Shown one piece after another: positions 6,009 to 31,909 of a stretch of 64,000 nt of DNA. This DNA is from Ischnura elegans (taxonomy: Eukaryota; Arthropoda; Insecta; Odonata; Coenagrionidae). The stretch is from assembly GCF_921293095.1 (NCBI RefSeq), contig NC_060251.1, positions 40,405,644 to 40,469,643 of the forward strand, in the 5' to 3' direction. The position numbers were made by a program, and so were the translations under genes. The stretch's first letter is position 1. Each line of letters starts with the position of its first letter. Under the pieces are notes generated by a model. That model was not told the origin of the DNA. It made no database searches and saw nothing but the letters and a program-made list of their open reading frames with translations.

Positions 6009-6810
6009 CTAGGATTGGTTTGACGCAGCTCTCCACTCAGTTCTCCTATCAGCTAATCTTTTCACACCTACGTATTTCTTCTCTTTCACATCTCTCTTTA
6101 CTTGTTCCATATATTTTGTTCGAGGTCTTCCTTTTCCATTCTTGCCTTCCACTTGTCCTTCGACGATTGTCTTCATCAGGCCATCATGTCTCAAGATGTG
6201 GCCTATAAGGTTGTTCCGTCTTCTTATCAAGGCTTCTCTTCTCTCCTACCCTTCTTAGGACTTCCTCGTTACTAACTCGGTCGATCCATTTGATTTTCAT
6301 CATTCTTCTGTAGCACCACATTTCAAAGGCCTCTATCCTTGCTTTCTCCGCTGCGGTCATTGTCCATGCCTCACTTCCGTATAGGAGCATACTCCAGGTG
6401 TAGGTTCTTATAAATTGTTTCTTTACTTCCATATTTAAGTTTCCCGCTGTAAGCAGGTCTCTCTTTTGGTGTAATGCTCTCTTCGCCTGGGCTATTCTGC
6501 TGATAATTTCTTTCTTGCTTCTCCCGTCACTAGTTATCTTGCTTCCCAAATAACAGAATTCATCCACTTCTATCAGTTTTTGCCTCCCTATTTTAATGTT
6601 GGTTTTGACTTCTTCTCTTCTTCTGCATACTAAGATCTTGGTTTTCTTCGTGCTTATTTTCAGTTGATATCTACTCATTACCCTACCCATATTAACCAGA
6701 ATATTTTTCAAATCCTTCTCTGTTTCTGCTATAACGGCTATGTCATCGGCAAATCTTAGCATGCTAATTTTTTCTCCATGGATATTCACTCCCAATTCGT
6801 CACCTCATCA
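6009..6810 (-). pseudogene. Non-LTR retrotransposon reverse-transcriptase fragment, copy A (frameshifted)
   Basis: This encodes the C-terminal part of a LINE reverse transcriptase. The catalytic FADD box (MLRFADDIAVIAE) lies about 15 residues into the fragment. It is followed by KTKILV, the CYLGSKITSDG block, a LLYGSEAWTM block, and the typical tail with NLIGHILRHDGL, GKGRPRTKYMEQV and RTEWR. The 5' half (endonuclease and fingers) is missing, so this is a 5'-truncated copy. Compared with copy B an 11-bp deletion near 6230 shifts the frame and splits the protein into two open frames. The element is dead. Its exact clade was not determined. Confidence 0.9.
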
Positions 6811-7421
6811 TTTATATTATGTCGAGTAAAATGTCTATTACCTATAATATTAATTCTCGCATGAATCTCATTTCGTTTCGGAAGAAAAGTTTCGTAATTT
6901 GCATGCATTCTTTGATATAAATCATATATATTTGTAAACTTAAAAAATTATCATGGTGCTAAATGTTGGAGGGATGGACGGACTGGCCGTCCATGCGGGG
7001 TCTCACGGAGTCAAGCCCCAGTCGTATTTCTCTTTGATATTAAAATTGACAGTTCCCAGCCAATTTGGTGGTGTTTCTCTTAATATAATTTTCGAAAAAA
7101 AAATAAAATTCATTGTTTTAAAATTATAAGTTATAAAATTCATACTGAGTCATGGTATATGGGCTCGATTGGTGCATTTTTTTCTTTTTCTCCTTCCCTC
7201 CCGAGGTGACCGAATTTATAAGTCTCGTCCCATGAGAGTACTCTCATGGGCCCATCCTCGGTACGCGAACCGATGTTTGATGAGCCATATCCAAAAAGAG
7301 TTATAAAATAAATTTTAAAAAGAAGAAAAAATATAACAAAACAGAAAGATTTGATGCTTTCCCGGCGAATGATGTGAGTAAACGTCTCTCGGGTTTCCCA
7401 CCGGGTTAAAGGCTTCATAAT

Positions 7422-7464
7422 GGCCGACGTTTCGAGCTCCGACTCGGCGCTCATCATCAGGGCT
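7422..7464 (-). ncRNA. Hammerhead-ribozyme-like motif in the Penelope 3' region
   Basis: On the minus strand CTGATGAT is followed by a hairpin (GAGC paired with GCTC, plus two inner C-G pairs) and then GAAACGTC. GAAAC-GTC can form the very short AC/GU stem III followed by the cleavage C, and flanking GCC/GGC can form stem I. One extra T precedes stem II relative to the textbook core CUGAUGA. Penelope-like elements are known to carry hammerhead motifs. Activity is not shown here. Confidence 0.55.
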
Positions 7465-7516
7465 ACTGGATGCTGTGATGCGGGAATGGGCCTGCTTATA
7501 TGCTGCCCTCCTCCGG

Positions 7517-8682
7517 TCAGGTTCCTCGGGATTGGCTGGTAGTTTCCCGCCTGGTGGGGTTGACTCCGGATTGGTCTGTCCGTCGTATCGTCCTTTCCCT
7601 GTATTCGGTCAGTTTTTTCAGAACGGGTTTCCAAGTGCTGCTAAGGGAATACCCTGAATCGCGATTAAAGTTCTTCCTCTCCAGTTTAATTTCGATGGCT
7701 TCTTTGGTGAGACGGTCCCAAAAACTTTTGGCATGACAAAGTATCTCTGTTTTTTCAAATTGAATTTTATGGGCGTGTTCGACACTATGCTCAGCAATGG
7801 CAGATTTTTCTAGCTGACCAAGCCTCAGATGCCGCTTATGTTCTTTAAGCCTGGTTTCAATGGTGCGGCCAGTTTCTCCAATGTATGCCTCACCGCACTC
7901 GCAGGGGACACGGTAGACACCAGGAATCTTGAGACCGGCTGGGTCCTTCGCTCGTACCAGCTGTTCCTTCAATTTCATGGGAGGCTTGTGGATGGTCTCG
8001 ATGTTGTGCCTCCTGAGTATCCTCGAAATCTTCCCCGAAACTGATGAGACATAAGGCAGGCACGCTCTTGCAACCGGCTTTTCCTTGTCCTCTATATGGC
8101 GCTTATCCCGTGGTTCGGAGGTCCTTTTAAGGGCCATGGAAATTTGGTGTCCATTGTAACCATTTTGTGCAAAGGTTTTCTTCAGATGTGCCAACTCCGA
8201 GGGTAAACTGTTTTGGTCAGAGATGGGCATGGCTCTATGAAACAGGGTTGTCAGTACAGCTGAGCGCTGCGAAGGATGATGGTGACTGCCTCCATTCAAG
8301 TACAAGTTGGTGCTTGTCGGTTTCCGATAAACGCTGGGGCCAAGAGTTCCATCGCTCTTCCGTTGGATGAGAATATCCAGGAACGGTAGCCGGCCATCCT
8401 TCTCTAGTTCCATGGTGAAGGTGATGTTGGGATGCCGGCTGTTCATGTGCTCCAAGAACTGGTCAAGGTTGTCCCTCCCGTGTGGCCACACTATGAAGGT
8501 ATCGTCAACGTACCGGTAGAAATACTTCGGGCGTAGCGGAGCTGAGTTTAAGGACTTCTCTTCGAAATCCTCCATGAAGAAATTGGCGACGGCGGGGGAT
8601 AGAGGGGACCCCATGGCAACTCCCTCAGCCTGCTCAAAGAATTCACCGTTGAATTGGAAGTAGGTGGAAGTTAAAACGTGGT
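7517..8682 (-). CDS. Penelope-like element ORF: reverse transcriptase + GIY-YIG endonuclease (partial)
   Basis: The protein copies element RNA into DNA and nicks target DNA. The recognisable part starts upstream of AMGSPLSPAVANFFMEDFE and has the catalytic block RYVDDTFIVWP, then LPFLDILIQRK and VYRKPTSTNLYLN. These are typical of Penelope reverse transcriptases. The C-terminal part has GVYRVPCECGEAYIGETGR followed by TRLKEHKRH, the GIY-YIG endonuclease signature of this class. About 365 codons from the methionine at 8614 are open with no internal stop. The reading frame continues upstream to about 8682, where the copy is truncated, so the N-terminal half is absent. The intact frame suggests a fairly recent insertion. 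Confidence 0.93.
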
Positions 8683-9029
8683 GAAATTATTGGGGTCCCC
8701 TTTAATAAAAAAGGACTTTAATAAAAGCTAGTCGTAATATTGTTTGAGCATTTGCTTTTTCCATTTAGACGGCTGGTGTGCTAACACCCTCTGCCACACG
8801 CCTTTTCAAGCAGTTTGCGGGGTAGTATGTAGATGTAGATGAAATGCGCTCCTTAATTATTGCATCGTAAACTGAGTGGTTGGGTTGAATATGGTTTAAC
8901 GGAAGGGCTTCATACGCGCCTCCGGCACGCCAAGTAACGATAGTCCGAGACTACGCCGATCTACTCTCTCCGGATATTGTTGCGATGATCTCTTAAGCAT
9001 GTCCCTTCACTTTTACCGAGCGGGCGAAT

Positions 9030-9687
9030 AGGGTGGTTTCCTATTATTTTTTAATTGCCTAAATCGAAAGATTATTAGGTACTCCTGGAGTACGTATTTC
9101 ACGCTTTTAGATTTTTAAATGACGATGTCTATTTTTCGCGATTAAATGAAAAGTGAAAATTTTAAAGCGCGCGAAAACGCGACGGGTAAGTATGAATGCC
9201 GGGAAAACTCCCGTGTGACGTCGTTTTGGTTCCCGCTGCCGCAAGTGAGGTGACCTAGGGGCGAGGCTCTGAGCGCTGATACGACGCAGGATGCTATCAG
9301 GTAGCTGAGTACCATGCTATCTGGTAGCGCTTGGCTTAAATAAGGATTATTAATACCTTATCAAACGAGGAAAACTTTCCGACCTTAGCCAGTTGTAATA
9401 GGTGATTATTAAGACATGTTTCCCTGAGCTCTGTGCCTCATTGGTAACCTCAGATGATGTAAAACTCCTATCTACTCGTATTGAAACTAGGTCCCTGTGA
9501 CGTCACGTGGAGTGGCATCGCATGGGCGCCAATCTGGCCTTTTTCAAATGAGGATAAAATTGACCCTTGCCATTCGTCTAAACCGGTATTTCTAAAACTA
9601 AATAATTTGTATATTATGAATATACTAATGGTGGGTAATGAATCGCAATCAATGCCTTTCGTTTTCTTTGATGAAGGAAACTACCCT
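9030..9687 (+). mobile_element. ~660-bp inverted-repeat element (AGGGTGGTTTCC family), copy 1
   Basis: The ends AGGGTGGTTTCC and GGAAACTACCCT are inverted repeats. The uninterrupted sequence of unit B (GGTGAATTGCTCG at about 13194) is the empty site, and comparison indicates a 2-bp AT duplication. The interior has a GCGCGCGAAAACGCGAC block and a pair of short palindromes but no transposase, so it is non-autonomous. Other copies are at 10199, 18688, 56330 and 63548. Confidence 0.85.
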
Positions 9688-10198
9688 ATTGCTCGTAGGA
9701 GTACTTTGACCACGTTGCATTGGTTAACCACTCCGCCCCTGGATAAAGATTTTTTTACCACAAGTATCAATCAATACATTGATTAGATATCAACAGATTG
9801 TCATCAGAAATAGATTTATAGAGGCGCAGAATTTTATTTGTCAAGAAAGGATCACAAGCACAAATTATATCCTCCGAATCAGCTTTCAAATTCTGTGAAA
9901 TATTCTTTCCTGCACCGGGGGATAGGGGTTTGGGACAGTCTACCAAAGGTAGTTTTCAAACTCTTCCCGCGTAAACTTAAAATCCGTCATGAGAAGGTTA
10001 AAATAAAATATTGATATGTAAGGGTCTTTCTCATTTTTTACTGTTTACATAATTAGGGCAAAGTTTATGCTGCGTATGTGTTTCTCCATGTTCGCGTGTT
10101 TTTTTTTATTGCAACGACATGTATTAACTCCAGTAAAACCAAATTATGCTACCACCCGACGGAATGGTCGACTGGTAACTTTATTTTTTCATAATAAT

Positions 10199-10860
10199 AG
10201 GGTAGTTTCCTTCATCAAAGAAAACAAAAGGCAATAATTGCGATTCGTTACCCACCATTAGTGTATTCATAATATACAAATTATTTCGTTTTATAAATGC
10301 CGGTGTAGACGAATGGCAATGGTCCATTTTTATCCTCATTTGAAAAGGGCCAGATTGGCGCCCATGCGATGCCACTCCACGTGACGTCACAGGGACCTAG
10401 TTTCTATAGGAGAAGATAGGAGTTATACGTCGTCTGAGGTTACCAATGCATGCATGAGGCGCAGAGCTCGGGGAAACATGTCTTAATAATCACTTATTAA
10501 AACTGGCTAAGGTCGGAAAGTTTTCCTCGTTTGATAAGGTATTAATAAACCTTATTTAAGCCAAGCGCTACCAGGCAGCAGGGCACTAGGCTACCCGCTG
10601 GCAGCCTGCGACGTATCAGCGCTAAGCCTCGCCTCAAGGTCACCTCACCGGGCGGAGGGGGAACCAGAAATACGACGTACGGAGAGATTTCCCATCATTC
10701 CTACTAACGCGTCGCGTTTTCGCGCGCTTGAAAATTTTCACTTTTCATTTAATCGCGAAAAATAGATATTATCATTTAAAAATCTAAAAGCGTGAAATAC
10801 GTACTCCAGGAGTAATAATCTTTCGATTAAGGCAATAAAAAAATAATAGGAAACCCCCCT
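10199..10860 (-). mobile_element. ~660-bp inverted-repeat element, copy 2 (inverted)
   Basis: This is the reverse-complement orientation of the copy at 9030. It begins AGGGTAGTTTCCTTCATC and ends GGAAACCCCCCT. The matching empty site in unit B is CATAATAATGCGGCAGG at about 13700-13715. Confidence 0.85.
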
Positions 10861-10880
10861 ATTGCGGCAGGAAAATTCAA

Positions 10881-11380
10881 NNNNNNNNNNNNNNNNNNNN
10901 NNNNNNNNNNNNNNNNNNNNNNNNNNNNNNNNNNNNNNNNNNNNNNNNNNNNNNNNNNNNNNNNNNNNNNNNNNNNNNNNNNNNNNNNNNNNNNNNNNNN
11001 NNNNNNNNNNNNNNNNNNNNNNNNNNNNNNNNNNNNNNNNNNNNNNNNNNNNNNNNNNNNNNNNNNNNNNNNNNNNNNNNNNNNNNNNNNNNNNNNNNNN
11101 NNNNNNNNNNNNNNNNNNNNNNNNNNNNNNNNNNNNNNNNNNNNNNNNNNNNNNNNNNNNNNNNNNNNNNNNNNNNNNNNNNNNNNNNNNNNNNNNNNNN
11201 NNNNNNNNNNNNNNNNNNNNNNNNNNNNNNNNNNNNNNNNNNNNNNNNNNNNNNNNNNNNNNNNNNNNNNNNNNNNNNNNNNNNNNNNNNNNNNNNNNNN
11301 NNNNNNNNNNNNNNNNNNNNNNNNNNNNNNNNNNNNNNNNNNNNNNNNNNNNNNNNNNNNNNNNNNNNNNNNNNNNNNNN
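10881..11380. other. Assembly gap (500 N)
   Basis: Five hundred undetermined bases lie between the two tandem composite units. The round number suggests a placeholder rather than a measured length. Open reading frames running through it are artefacts. Confidence 0.98.
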
Positions 11381-12030
11381 ATCAGGCCATCATGTCTCAA
11401 GATGTGGCCTATAAGGTTGTTCCGTCTTCTTATTAAGGTTTTCATGAGGCTTCTCTTCTCTCCTACCCTTCTTAGGACTTCCTCGTTACTAACTCGGTCG
11501 ATCCATTTGATTTTCATCATTCTTCTGTAGCACCACATTTCAAAGGTCTCTATCCTTGCTTTCTCCGCTGCGGTCATTGTCCATGCCTCACTTCCGTATA
11601 GGAGCATACTCCAGATGTAGGTTCTTATAAATTGTTTCTTTACTTCCATATTTAAGTTTCCCGCTGTAAGCAGGTCTCTCTTTTGGTGGAATGCTCTCTT
11701 CGCCTGGGCTATTCTGCTGATAATTTCTTTCTTACTTCTCCCGTCACTAGTTATCTTGCTTCCCAAATAACAGAATTCATCCACCTCTATCAGTTTTTGC
11801 CTCCCTATTTTAATGTTGGTCTTGACTTCTTCTCTTCTGCTGCATACTAAGATCTTGGTTTTCTTCGTGCTTATTTTCAGTTGATATCTACTCATTACCC
11901 TACCCATATTAACCAGAATATTTTTCAAATCCTTCTCTGTTTCTGCTATAACGGCTATGTCATCGGCAAATCTTAGCATGCTAAGTTTTTCTCCATGGAT
12001 ATTCACTCCCAATTCATCACCTCATCATTT
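11381..12030 (-). pseudogene. Non-LTR retrotransposon reverse-transcriptase fragment, copy B
   Basis: This is nearly identical to copy A from MGVNIHGEKLSMLRFADD to NLIGHILRHDGL, but retains the 11 bp lost in copy A, so the frame stays open. It is cut at its C-terminal side by the assembly gap and is 5'-truncated at the same point as copy A. The shared truncation point indicates that the two arose by duplication of one insertion rather than by two insertions. Confidence 0.9.
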
Positions 12031-27500: not shown

Positions 27501-30500
27501 GAGGGTTTCCTGCTTGTTCTGCTAGCTTGCCACTCGTATGCTCAGTTCTTGTCTCGTCCAGGACAATTTCCTGGCAATCCCCAACCACCTCGCCAGGGAT
27601 CGTTCTTTCCAAGACCACAGCAACCCGGGCTCCTCCGTCAGCTGGCCAACTTGCTGGGCTTCAATGGTGGTGGGGTCTCTCCTGCTCCGGACTCCTTTCC
27701 CCCATCTGGCCCAGATGGCATCAGAGGTCCTGCAGGACCGAGGCCCATAGTGCCAAACCAACAGTTCTTCAGGCCGGATGGCCCACCACCTCTTGGACCG
27801 ATCCAAGGGCTGCAGAACCCACAGCAGACCAATTTCGGCAGTGGTTTCAACCCCCAGGGAAGCTTTCAGAGGCCAGTTCAGGGTCCAAGACAACCACAGC
27901 CACAGTTTCTGAGCGGGCAGCAACAACAGCAAGGAAGAATACCTTTGGGAAGCCCTCAGATTTTGACTTTCCAAGCAGAGGATGTGAGGCCAGCTCCAGG
28001 ATTCAATAGTATATCCCCAGGAAATCAACAATCTCCAGGTTTCCTCCAGCAACAATCAACACTTCAGGGCACATCAATTCGCCCTGCTGAACCCCTGTTG
28101 CGCCAACCAATTGCAACACAGATCACAAATGACTTGGTTGGGGTTTCCCAGTCAAATCTTGTTCAGCAGGCGACTTTTACCCAATTCTCCCAGCCATCCC
28201 TACAACAGGGGAATCCCATTGAACTGGTGTCAGCACCCACTCTGAATCAGACAGCAACATTGAGGGACATTTTAAGGGAGGACTGTGAGGATTACGAGGA
28301 GCAGGGATACTGTGACTCTTCAAGGAGGTACCCCAGGTAAGTGGAGGGTTGCTTTATATGCAAGATACATTGCGTTTTTTTAATCAAACAATGCAAAATC
28401 GAATTATTTTGTGGCAGTTCTCCAAATGCCTTTACATATCCTGTCCTCATTTCATTTAGATACCCTTCAAGGCTAAATTTATTGATTATCATATTCATAC
28501 ATATCTTACCTTCCATCATCATCACCATAAATGCCATATTTCTCCAAAATTCTCCTATTAATATTTTCTTCGGTTCTTTTGGTTATATAAACGGTCCTTC
28601 ATCAATAGTTGATTATGGTAGAGTTTGAAAAGTTAAGAGACCTGGACCTGTCTTATTCCATTTTTGGATTCATCATCTACTTCTCTAGATGTGTATTTGT
28701 GACAAAATTCAATGGCCGTGACCCTTTTGCAGATAAGTTGATAGTGCCATTAACCTCAGCCAAGAGAGTCACTGAATTCCAACTATGAATTCCTCAGCCT
28801 CATACGGTTTTTTTTTGTAATTTACACTCTTGCTAGCAATGTGAGTGAGGTAACATTTTAGGGTGTGAATCATTCCAAGAAGATATTCTTGATATTGCAT
28901 TCCCCAAACATTTCAGGGGGTTTGAACTCTATTGAAAGTGTCTACTAAAAGTTCACTGCAGCCTAGTTAAGTGTGGGTTTACAACCCCGGATCCAGTGGC
29001 ATAGCAAGGGGGGGTCTTAACACTTCCCCCCCCTACCCCCCGAAATATAAAAGCACACTTACTTTGAATCACAAAAGAAAACCAAATATTGAAAAAAATC
29101 ATGAATTTACAAAATATTTCTTTGAAAAATGTTGATGTAGGCTGCATTTTCTGGGTTTCACCGCGTCGTGGTTGCATTGGGGACAACAGTTTCTCCTACA
29201 TTCCAGCAGGCATCTTCAGGTCGAAGTGATTATGCTGTCAAGTCAAGTCAAAAATTGTTTATTTCACGAGCAAGTGACAATTACATAAAATTTGAAACAA
29301 CAACAACAACATAACAACAAAGCTCGTGAAGCTGTTATAGGCTTACGCCTCTTCAGCATTACTGGGATTTTTCACTGGTACAGGAGTGGTGTCGGCCCGG
29401 CATTCGCCCTAAGGAGTTGGGAAACCCGTAAAACCACCGTGTTTTGGCCGCCGTTATATAGGCAGCCCAGTGGCGTATGTTCTCCCTGATTGGTCGGCTT
29501 GTGGCCAATTGCACACTATGCTATTGGCCGCAAGGCGACCAATCAGGGAGAACATACACCACTGGGTTGCCTATATAACGGCGGCCAAAATACGGCATAA
29601 TCACTTCGACCTGAAGACGCCTGCTGGAATGCAGGAGAAACTGTTGTCCCCAACGCAACCACGGCGCAGTGAAACCAGGAAAATGCAGCCTACATTACCA
29701 GCACACCGCAGAAGCCTTCGCACCAACTTATGAAAAATGTTGTAACATTTTAGCATGGAAAAGGTGAATAAAACCAACATTTTAAGAAAATAATTACACC
29801 ACTTTATTATTTTTATAAAATTATTTGCTTGGAAAAAAGATTTCTTTCAGTAACATGTCTTATACTAATATCATTTTTCGTGGGCTTAAAGAAAATTTGT
29901 TGATAACTGTTGTTACAATTCAGTCCTGATTTTCCGTGAAGACTTGTAATTTTTACTTCTGGGGGGTGGGGCAGCTGCTCTTCTTAACCCCTGCCGGATA
30001 CGTCCATGTCGGTGGATCCTAGCTCTCTTGAGAGGCTCCATATGAACTTGACATACCTCTGAGAAATACACCAAGTCCTTTCATGCAAACCCAGAGATCA
30101 TGGGTTCAGTTCTTGCTTGGGTGGGTTTTTCCTCCTCCAAGGCTTAGTGTTATGCGCACATATGACAATTAGATGTTAGATGTACATTTATCACACATAA
30201 AAAGAATGAAAAAATATCGTGAGAAAAGGGATAACTTATCATACCCCATAAATTAAAAGCATCATTTAACATATTCATAAAAAGTATTAATTTCCAGGGC
30301 GATGAAAGCAAAATCCAAGTATGTATTACATTGCGGTCATGACCTATTTACACAGGGCTCTCTTCTTTATATTTACTGTTTAAAATTTATGATTTTGAAT
30401 GCTACTTCATTGTTATCCTTTGAACATATTTTGTTCAACTTAGAGAAACAAGAAGGCAAAAACTTAATTTAAAATCACAGTGGAACCATACCTTAAAGTA

Positions 30501-31909
30501 TGGGCATACCCAGCTGGGGGACAGGGGCAGTGGCACCGACTCCATGGGGCCTGAGGGGGCCTAAGCCCCCTCAAAAATTTGTTATGGGTGCGAGAAAAAA
30601 ATGTGTCAGGCTTGTTGATTTTCCCCGGAGTGTCCAGATATCGAGATTCGAGTTATCAGGGCTCTAATGTTGATCATACAACTCTTTTAAAATGCTTAAA
30701 AAACTTAAAACTCAATACTTATAAAATTTCCTGAGGCAAGTTCCCGGTTTGGGCCCCCCCCCCAATATTTTTTGTAAGTCAGCTCCCCTGGACAGGGAAG
30801 GCAACTGACCCCCCCCCCCCCCTAGGAGAAAAAAAATAAATTTAGTTCAAAACAAAAGTTATGAACAAAATTTTCCTTTTGAAGAAAATATTAGTATAAG
30901 ACATGGAACTAAAATAAAAATCATTATTTTTTCAAGCAAACAATTATAAAAACTAATAAATTTCTGTCATAATTTCCTTAAAATTTTGGTTTTATTAACC
31001 TTTTCTGTGGAGAAAAGATTTATATTTCCGTAATTATTAGTAGGAATCGCAGGTAAAAAGACGATATCTCGTCGACGTTGAAAACACGTCGATTTTCGGA
31101 CCATATAGACATCGATCGATGTGTTACCATCGACGTTTTATCGATGAGTACTTCGACGTCGAATCGACGGAGATTCGATGATCCATTTCTCACTGGGAAA
31201 AGTTACAACTTGAACGACTACAACTAGTTTTGCCCCCCCCCCCCCCCCTAGTTTTCATTCTGGGTTCGCCCATGCCTGATAGATTCACAATGAATTTTGT
31301 ATGCTCTTCATCATTTTATCAAATGAACACTACCTGTTATTTAGTGTTCCTAAGTAATTAATAGCCCTAATGATTGTGAAATGAATGCTATTTTTCAGGT
31401 TGCAGGTGGCAGATTTAGTGAGGAGGTGTGCTGGGATAGTGAATGCACTGTATGTCCCCATACCGGAGTCTAATGATATTGTATCCACCCACCTGCGGAA
31501 GGAGAAAAAAGAGGGTAATTCACTGAGAAATATCGAGCGTGCCAACCAAGCTGTCTGGTCGTGGGCAAAATATGCTGCCGGAAAAAGTTCAGTGTGCAAG
31601 TCTGACATTCGCCGCGTGAATCCGAGCTATGCGAGGGATATCTCCAAGAAGTGGGTGGTGGTGCTTCAACATCCGGAGGGTAATATGGTGCAACATGTGT
31701 CCATGGATAAGTGTACAAATGTCGACAAAGAGTGCCTCTCAGGGCCAGAGGGCAATAGGCATCCAGGAACCAGGTGCACTCAACGGCATACGCATCACCA
31801 CTTGGTGACCTGGGACCCGGACAAACCGAGTGACTGTCCATCCTTACGAGCGTTTTCATTTCCGACTGCATGTCTATGCCACTTTTCCCTCAGTTCTTCC
31901 AGAATTTGA
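27501..31909 (+). CDS. Spätzle-like secreted cystine-knot ligand (two 3' coding exons)
   Basis: Spätzle-family proteins are secreted pro-ligands cleaved outside the cell to release a cystine-knot dimer that binds Toll receptors. Exon 27501-28336 follows TTTTTTGACTTCCCAG and ends CCCAG/GTAAGT. Exon 31399-31909 follows CTATTTTTCAG and ends at TGA. They join in frame (phase 2), giving about 448 residues. The first exon begins with a hydrophobic run (GFLLVLLACHSYAQ) resembling the core and end of a signal peptide, then a long Pro/Gln/Gly-rich region, then CEDYEEQGYC. The second exon carries the C-terminal knot: VCKSDIRRVNP, KKWVVVLQHP, QHVSMDKC, EC, RCTQ, DCPSLRAFSFPTACLC. That gives seven cysteines and the closing FPxxCxC motif of the family. 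The start codon lies in an upstream exon that I did not find. The paralogue (spz to spz6) cannot be fixed by eye. Confidence 0.88.
28994..29134 (+). mobile_element. hAT-like MITE, CAGTGGCGTAGC family, copy 4 (interrupted)
   Basis: It starts CAGTGGCATAGCAAGG and keeps the AATATAAAAGCACAC and TGAATTTACAAAATATTTC blocks. It then breaks at TGAAAAATGTTG, the target-site repeat of the inverted-dimer insertion. Its continuation after 29742 is too diverged to trace. Confidence 0.65.
29182..29219 (-). ncRNA. Hammerhead-like motif, left arm of the inverted dimer
   Basis: On the minus strand CTGAAGAT is followed by GCCTGC, a loop, GTAGGA, then GAAAC, TGTT and GTC. C-G closing around TGTT gives a short stem III. 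Position 7 and the base after A9 differ from the textbook core in the same way as at the other Penelope-type ends in the window. Confidence 0.45.
29611..29648 (+). ncRNA. Hammerhead-like motif, right arm of the inverted dimer
   Basis: CTGAAGAC, GCCTGC, TGGAAT, GCAGGA, GAAAC, TGTT, GTC appear in order. Stem II pairs CCTGC with GCAGG perfectly, whereas the left-arm copy has one mismatch. This is the mirror copy of the motif at 29182-29219. Confidence 0.48.
29800..30010 (-). mobile_element. Fragment of the CATGGGCGTACCCAGC MITE family
   Basis: The right end reads, on the minus strand, CATGGACGTATCCGGCAGGG. The block TCTTATACTAATATCATTTTTCG is shared, reversed, with copies at 30501 and 33444. 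Its left boundary is approximate. Confidence 0.5.
30499..31274 (+). mobile_element. CATGGGCGTACCCAGC-type MITE carrying a nested hAT-like MITE
   Basis: The ends are TATGGGCATACCCAGC and, at the right, CTGGGTTCGCCCATG. The interior shares GTATAAGACATGGAACTAAAA with the copy at 33444. It is interrupted by the element at 30528-30790 and includes an unusual TCGA-rich segment at 31060-31190. Confidence 0.65.
30528..30790 (-). mobile_element. hAT-like MITE, CAGGGATGCCGACTTAC family, copy 3 (inverted, nested)
   Basis: It reads CAGTGGCACCGACTCCATGG to GTAAGTCAGCTCCCCTG. The flanks GACAGGGG (30520-30527) and GACAGGGA (30791-30798) match at 7 of 8. It sits inside the element at 30499-31274. Confidence 0.85.

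Follow-up and report, generated by a model that had tools for sequence, protein, structure and literature searches.

An inverted pair of Penelope-like element ends in Ischnura elegans as a probable product of two-ended, target-primed reverse transcription

The closest described counterparts of the insertion reported here are the GIY-YIG Penelope-like elements (PLEs) of Adineta vaga. These carry inverted pseudo-LTRs (pLTRs), one of which optionally bears a 31-bp tail, the inverted pLTR being 37 bp shorter; their pLTRs contain a TATA box, target-site duplications (TSDs) measure 8-10 bp, and palindromes occur at the inverted junctions (PMC3846280). PMC8969392 likewise mentions inverted pLTRs, along with short 3' extensions, in PLEs. 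Work done mainly in vitro on the protein of the Poseidon PLE PAc from Anolis carolinensis reports that it cuts as well as extends the two target strands, that reverse transcription begins at two neighbouring internal positions of the RNA with the "tail" lying between them, and that the start site does not differ between strands (PMC11167929). PLEs are also said to carry hammerhead motifs in two reviews (PMC6155905, PMC7761336), and metazoan retrozymes are small ORF-less sequences with a type I hammerhead (PMC7229834).

We analyzed a 64,000-nt stretch of the Ischnura elegans genome (hereafter the window) that holds an inverted dimer at positions 29123-29742. It shares the inverted pLTRs, the one-sided tail, the TSD, the palindrome and the TATA box with the A. 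vaga PLEs (PMC3846280). With PAc it shares two adjacent reverse-transcription start sites, here presumed, bounding the tail, the hammerhead motif at the junction of pLTR and ORF, AT-rich targets and, on the reading proposed below, the cutting and extension of both target strands (PMC11167929). The resemblance to retrozymes extends to the small, ORF-less sequence with a type I hammerhead; those, however, give circular RNAs of about 170-400 nt (PMC7229834), whereas the present feature, read from DNA only, is a TSD-flanked inverted dimer whose relatives vary in their joints. Inverted pLTRs, one-sided tails and TSDs are already known for PLEs, and it is the count of 31/31 dimers reported below that makes the tail a rule for the events seen. 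The features of the insertion are listed here by window coordinates.

29123-29134, no strand: left copy of the target-site duplication TGAAAAATGTTG, 12 bp, exact direct repeat.
29135-29235, minus: outer part of the left arm, an inverted PLE end region running from the tail-less border (pLTR position 177) to the RNA-start region.
29182-29222, minus: left-arm hammerhead-like motif (stem I GAC/GUC, CUGAAGA, stem II, GAAAC), from sequence, a pattern match and stem II covariation; Rfam negative.
29236-29436, minus: 3' end of a LINE-like repeat within the left arm, with an AATAAA signal and a TTGAC short-repeat tail; its right limit is ambiguous between 29436 and 29440 (CCGT).
29437-29513, minus: inner part of the left arm, an inverted PLE C-terminal coding and promoter-like region, from the inverted repeat.
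29514-29518, no strand: inner joint of the two arms (palindrome loop), the sole match in the genome.
29519-29730, plus: right arm, a PLE pLTR with tail; 39 other scored matches at 91-95%, with PLE coding sequence upstream in relatives.
29520-29600, plus: 3' end of the PLE ORF (AIGRKATNQGEHTPLGCLYNGGQNTA*), continuous with the GIY-YIG-like part in L090.
29572-29578, plus: TATATAA box, from sequence; the AIGRKATNQGEHTPLGCLYNGGQNTA* reading overlaps it.
About 29596-29608, plus: probable RNA start, from 19 of the 62 inner arm ends of 31 dimers, which lie at positions 78-90.
29608-29648, plus: right-arm hammerhead-like motif, from sequence and stem II covariation; Rfam negative.
29683-29733, plus: where the next PLE ORF presumably begins (MQPTLPAHRRSLRTNL*), truncated at the border of the insertion; the reading follows PLE anatomy (PMC11167929, PMC3846280).
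29696-29730, plus: PLE "tail" of about 35 bp, missing from the left arm and bounded by two presumed start sites of reverse transcription; present on exactly one arm in 31/31 dimers.
29731-29742, no strand: right copy of the target-site duplication, exact direct repeat.

The outer inverted arms (29130-29238 and 29592-29700) are 109 nt long and 91% complementary. An earlier note, made from the sequence alone, had described such arms, each with a hammerhead-like motif, and a 12-bp target duplication immediately outside them; we find both. It had also described an inner palindrome of 68 bp with a 13-nt loop. The palindrome is there, but we measure it as 77 nt per arm (29437-29513 and 29519-29595; 92% complementary) with the arms 5 nt apart, a difference that reflects how mismatches are allowed for. 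In two respects the arms are not alike: the right arm carries the additional bases of the tail, and only the left arm is interrupted, by about 201-205 bp (29236-29436/29440), in agreement with the insert of about 204 bp given in the note. Its statement that there is no ORF holds in that there is no long frame, but the right arm does contain 26 codons of the PLE ORF 3' end, followed by a stop (29520-29600), and the short new start. Outside the insertion, at window positions 31385-31909 (plus), a 174-aa frame matches Spaetzle (E 1.7e-17); it is likely a host gene, at a distance of about 1.6 kb.

Both arms consist of the terminal region, or pLTR, of a PLE; a Penelope origin is what the earlier note had supposed. 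Searches of the genome (1.72 Gb in 110 contigs) showed that the right half, 29519-29730, is repetitive: among 1148 first-look candidates 40 were scored, 39 of them besides the window copy, and these 39 span about 195-225 bases at 91-95% identity. A 50-base core over the hammerhead-like motif has 338 genome matches at ≤3 mismatches (reversed control, 0). In many relatives a stretch like "CCCCATACCCCCAC" precedes the right half, with coding sequence reading VYEIECSCGMSYIGQTGRAVKCRIQE... The link to a reverse transcriptase is seen in the related copy L090, where frame 793-1677 matches RVT_1 (E 2.1e-07, 31.3 bits vs a cut-off of 29.6) and lies upstream of the BODY and HALF sequences (97% and 93%); L090 has a frameshift, and its reading frame continues into the repeat, where it meets a stop. 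The reading VYEIECSCGMSYIGQTGR in relatives we take, by eye, to be GIY-YIG-like; for this frame of L090, searches gave no Pfam match and no PDB sequence match at E≤0.1. The order of elements along the right arm (ORF end, TATATAA, hammerhead-like motif, new start) is the pLTR anatomy given in PMC11167929 and PMC3846280. A pLTR, a one-ended 30-40-bp tail, a TSD and an inverted pLTR were all found (tail in 31/31 dimers, strong TSD in 28/31). The window feature is one of many inverted-form insertions of a common Penelope type.

The window holds a second PLE-like end region at 7300-8614 (minus), with a hammerhead-like motif (from about 7429, minus) and a TATA-like box, which is adjoined by a reverse-transcriptase frame. 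More RVT_1 frames lie near it (6184-6795 and 10738-12012, minus), with direct repeats spaced about 5.2 kb, and a long broken inverted repeat occupies 9027-9690 and 10196-10863 (six pieces, arms 76-94% complementary). Elsewhere in the genome, many of the PLE copies about 98% identical to a 738-base reverse-transcriptase query lie 0.01-4 Mb from contig ends: C19 at 119.5 and 121.5 of 123.6 Mb, C5 at 137.50 and 137.52 of 137.53 Mb, C8 at 116.4 of 118.1 Mb, C3 at 138.9 of 139.0 Mb, C6 at 125.4 of 126.0 Mb, C2 at 0.3 Mb and C7 at 0.4 Mb. Perhaps these are subtelomeric duplications or end-associated insertions.

We surveyed inverted pairs in 83 loci, comprising 64 PLE loci (some fetched twice; a sample, given the 338 core matches) and 19 LINE loci, numbering the pLTR from 1 to 212 such that position x corresponds to window position 29518+x. 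The survey gave 38 inverted-pair records and, after removal of seven duplicates, 31 distinct events; L074, L076, L082, L084 and L086 (cut) were re-fetches, while L022 has the flanks of L005, and L056 those of L055. L013 was dropped from the 31, its left arm being 82% and under the 85% cut, though it too has outer ends at 178 and 209 and a TSD. Orientation was head-to-head in 38/38 pairs, and no tail-to-tail pair occurred within the survey limit of 2.2 kb; direct tandem copies are spaced wider than this limit, so that the absence of direct pairs is uninformative. Among 30 loci with the best right-half matches (L001, L003-L008, L010-L032), an inverted arm was found within 1.5 kb in 10.

The outer borders of the 31 dimers are fixed: every one has one tailed end (205-212) and one tail-less end (172-187). 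Patterns without the tail had selected 18 of these events (8 core pairs, with L061 also in the first listing, and 10 from a T-variant pattern), and the remaining 13 came from searches with tailed sequence, where only the second arm tests the rule. The shared outer borders are explained by reverse-transcription start sites. In L010, L015 and L026, a short inverted stretch of PLE body, not pLTR, stands at the left side, which suggests other ways of second-end priming.

The dimers are also flanked by duplications. The TSD score was at least 9 in 28/31 dimers, the window copy included, vs 0.1% of 930 controls in which the same search was run on mispaired flanks; L023, L055 and L079 scored more weakly. 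TSD lengths, read from filled sites, range from 8 to 20 bp with a median of 13 bp, and 25/31 are 12-14 bp, in contrast to the 8-10 bp given for A. vaga PLEs in PMC3846280. Their GC content is 25%, vs 38% in the window.

In contrast to the outer ends, which relatives have in common, the inner joints differ. The inner ends of the two arms differ by >15 nt in 19/31 dimers, the tail-less arm being the one that extends deeper into the element in 11 of them and the tailed arm being longer in 8; the other 12, the window copy included, are symmetric within 15 nt. Inner ends of the two arms are weakly correlated (Spearman 0.42, P = 0.02). The cluster of 19 among the 62 inner ends at positions 78-90 sits some 24-36 bases downstream of where the TATA box begins, as would fit cDNA running off the RNA 5' end.

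The joint of the window copy has one match in the genome, its own, both with 49 and with 25 bases at ≤3 mismatches each, a search that misses sisters with >3 mismatches in the 25 joint bases or absent from the assembly. Among the 31 events, an identical pair of inner ends recurs only in L054 and L055; the other 28 besides the window copy each differ. The joint of L054, L055 and L056 occurs three times, always on C2. L055 and L056 have the same flanks and count as a single event. The flanks of L054 are different, and it has a clear duplication of its own (GGTGCTAAGACA, read from the opposite strand in the survey), whereas the one at L055 is weaker (score 7.4). The C2 dimer was therefore probably re-copied once as a unit.

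Arm divergence was 3.1% within dimers vs 4.7% between dimers (n = 18, 0/20000 permutations), the 18 being the 21 dimers then listed minus L022, L055 and L056; L007, L013 and L065 (short arms) and events fetched later did not enter the comparison. The arms of one dimer are more alike and therefore share a source or a time of origin. A T-for-G change was present in 6/21 tail-less arms and in 0/19 readable tailed arms (2 unread) at loci not chosen on T (P = 0.021). In the set chosen on T, it was present in 9/10 tail-less and 5/8 readable tailed arms (P = 0.27). The difference faintly hints that two template copies may have been used; as proof of two templates we rejected it, given the P-value in the T-chosen set.

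Both arms have the core letters of a minimal type I hammerhead (consensus CUGANGA ... stem II ... GAAAC). One extra base stands between A9 and stem II in the aligned copies (by eye). Across nine motif rows, namely the two window arms and seven other PLE copies beside LINE sequence, stem II keeps 90.7% of its pairs, both partners have changed in 4/6 pairs (mean of 2.2 in shuffles, 23/500 of which reached four), and double-changed cells number 11 vs 3.0 in shuffles (0/500). Stem I is invariant in the nine rows counted and hence uninformative, and in L052, which was left out of the pair count for its longer loop and its placement out of register by MAFFT, it differs on both sides (GCC/GGC, by eye); L049 was not aligned.

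The earlier note had named a covariance-model score no better than that of shuffled sequence as an outcome that would refute its reading; the silence of the Rfam models goes in that direction, although stem II covaries. Rfam hammerhead models gave no match at E≤10 in 28900-29950 and no hammerhead at E≤1 in six loci with related motifs, and the whole window at gathering cut-offs returned only a tRNA and no hammerhead. RF00163 had no match in the genome nor in 14 control genomes, and its negative result is hence little informative. Folding of single arms was no better than that of shuffles (z = -0.19 and +0.87). A miR-like Rfam score on the feature (E≤10) was taken as an inverted-repeat artefact. 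With a conserved core and stems I and II found and an Rfam match absent, the arms appear to carry a putative hammerhead variant, not a new ribozyme element. It resembles the minimal type I hammerheads of PLEs, as PMC6155905 and PMC7761336 describe them, in its location within the pLTR and in having no real stem III, and differs from them in the extra base after A9 and in its lack of an Rfam score.

The left arm is interrupted at 29236-29440 by a LINE-like 3' end with AATAAA and a TTGAC/TTGAA tail; of 346 candidate matches to it, 40 were scored. Among 20 LINE copies examined, 9 (L036, L037, L041, L043, L046, L047, L051, L052 and the window copy) have this end placed 20-32 nt ahead of a hammerhead-like motif of a PLE, a motif with a background of 1 in 104 kb, and several of these copies adjoin a TATA box (by eye). 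In another dimer, L002, the tail-less arm contains a longer LINE copy at the corresponding position, which we take as an independent insertion. We considered the fragment as a template-switch joint and disfavour this, since duplications around the LINE copies in L043 and L051 (by eye) favour insertion at the DNA level. That the insert is younger than the dimer, as the earlier note had argued, is plausible, the LINE-like 3' end being prone to land here in PLEs. On these positions, it looks as if a LINE-like retrotransposon targets the transcription start of another retrotransposon; a literature search on LINE targeting of the PLE start found nothing.

We propose that the window feature is probably a 5'-truncated PLE integration product made by two-ended target-primed reverse transcription. 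Staggered cuts about 12-13 nt apart, made by the element's endonuclease in the two strands of the target, would leave 3' ends. Each target 3' end would then prime reverse transcription of PLE RNA, one from the tailed and one from the tail-less start site, about 35 nt apart, so that the two strands would share the start sites between them. Synthesis of both cDNAs would end prematurely, in many cases where the RNA itself begins, about 24-36 nt past the TATA box; joining of the two cDNA ends in the middle of the insertion would then give a head-to-head pair with a one-sided tail and a duplicated target. The LINE-like 3' end would have entered the left arm later, and the hammerhead-like motifs would have been carried along within the pLTR. 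In the literature searched, we did not find two-ended priming stated for inverted PLE dimers.

The main competitor is self-priming, in which the first cDNA forms a hairpin and serves as its own template, yielding a palindrome; PMC3846280 favours it for the A. vaga PLEs, there on an antisense template, and reads their palindromes in this sense. The palindromic joint of the window copy, the 12/31 dimers that are symmetric like it, the weak correlation of the inner ends and the greater similarity of arms within a dimer are all in line with it, although for the last a shared source or age also suffices. What counts against the copying of one arm from the other is the inequality of the arms. The tail-less arms with extra sequence in 11/31 dimers include PLE sequence for which the tailed arm has no counterpart, and are therefore no simple copies of it, unless a later deletion is assumed; nor can the tailed arm be a copy of the tail-less arm, because the tail is absent from that template. 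The T/G difference between arm types points the same way at loci not chosen on T, but not significantly in the T-chosen set. We found no literature with comparable evidence against self-priming in PLE dimers. Self-priming is possible for symmetric dimers such as the window copy and fits the 11 unequal dimers badly, and overall we consider it unlikely.

The earlier note had favoured a compact, non-autonomous, ribozyme-bearing inverted-dimer unit mobilised by PLE enzymes. One joint on C2 does stand at two sites with different flanks, and a mobile dimer should show just this, the same inner joint at several sites with different TSDs; we saw it only for L054 vs L055/L056. The window joint has its single genome match and no other pair among the 31 events shares inner ends, which makes this proposal improbable. 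Two further explanations seem to us scarcely credible. PLE copies are abundant enough for two separate insertions in opposite orientation, or a recombination product, to be conceivable, but one TSD encloses the whole pair in 28/31 dimers, which would not be expected from two insertions, and all inverted pairs are head-to-head. A DNA transposon or MITE with long terminal inverted repeats would account for long inverted arms, a short TSD and an AT-rich target, but would have the same terminal end position on both arms and a constant TSD length; here the arm ends differ in element position (172-187 vs 205-212), TSD length and inner ends vary, and relatives continue into reverse transcriptase.

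Two-ended target-primed reverse transcription leaves one point to be accounted for: the strict one-of-each rule is unexplained by the in vitro work on PAc, where the strands use the start sites alike, without the difference that 31/31 dimers show here, and whose main text is without inverted dimers (PMC11167929). A stronger version, to which we would give even chances, is that PLE integration is intrinsically two-ended, with one reverse transcriptase on each staggered strand and obligatorily different start sites, and that head-to-head dimers are the default if the cDNAs join before completion. If true, the 31/31 rule would mean that the start sites are divided between the two halves of one integration complex.

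For annotation, compact PLE dimers should not be treated as separate ribozyme elements. The value of the window feature lies in what the set of dimers says about PLE integration. Dozens of short, readable dimers make integration countable, with outer ends that give the start sites and inner ends that give stopping and joining, and the rule of one tailed and one tail-less end, together with the 11 events in which the tail-less arm reaches further, turns self-priming vs two-ended priming into a directly testable choice.
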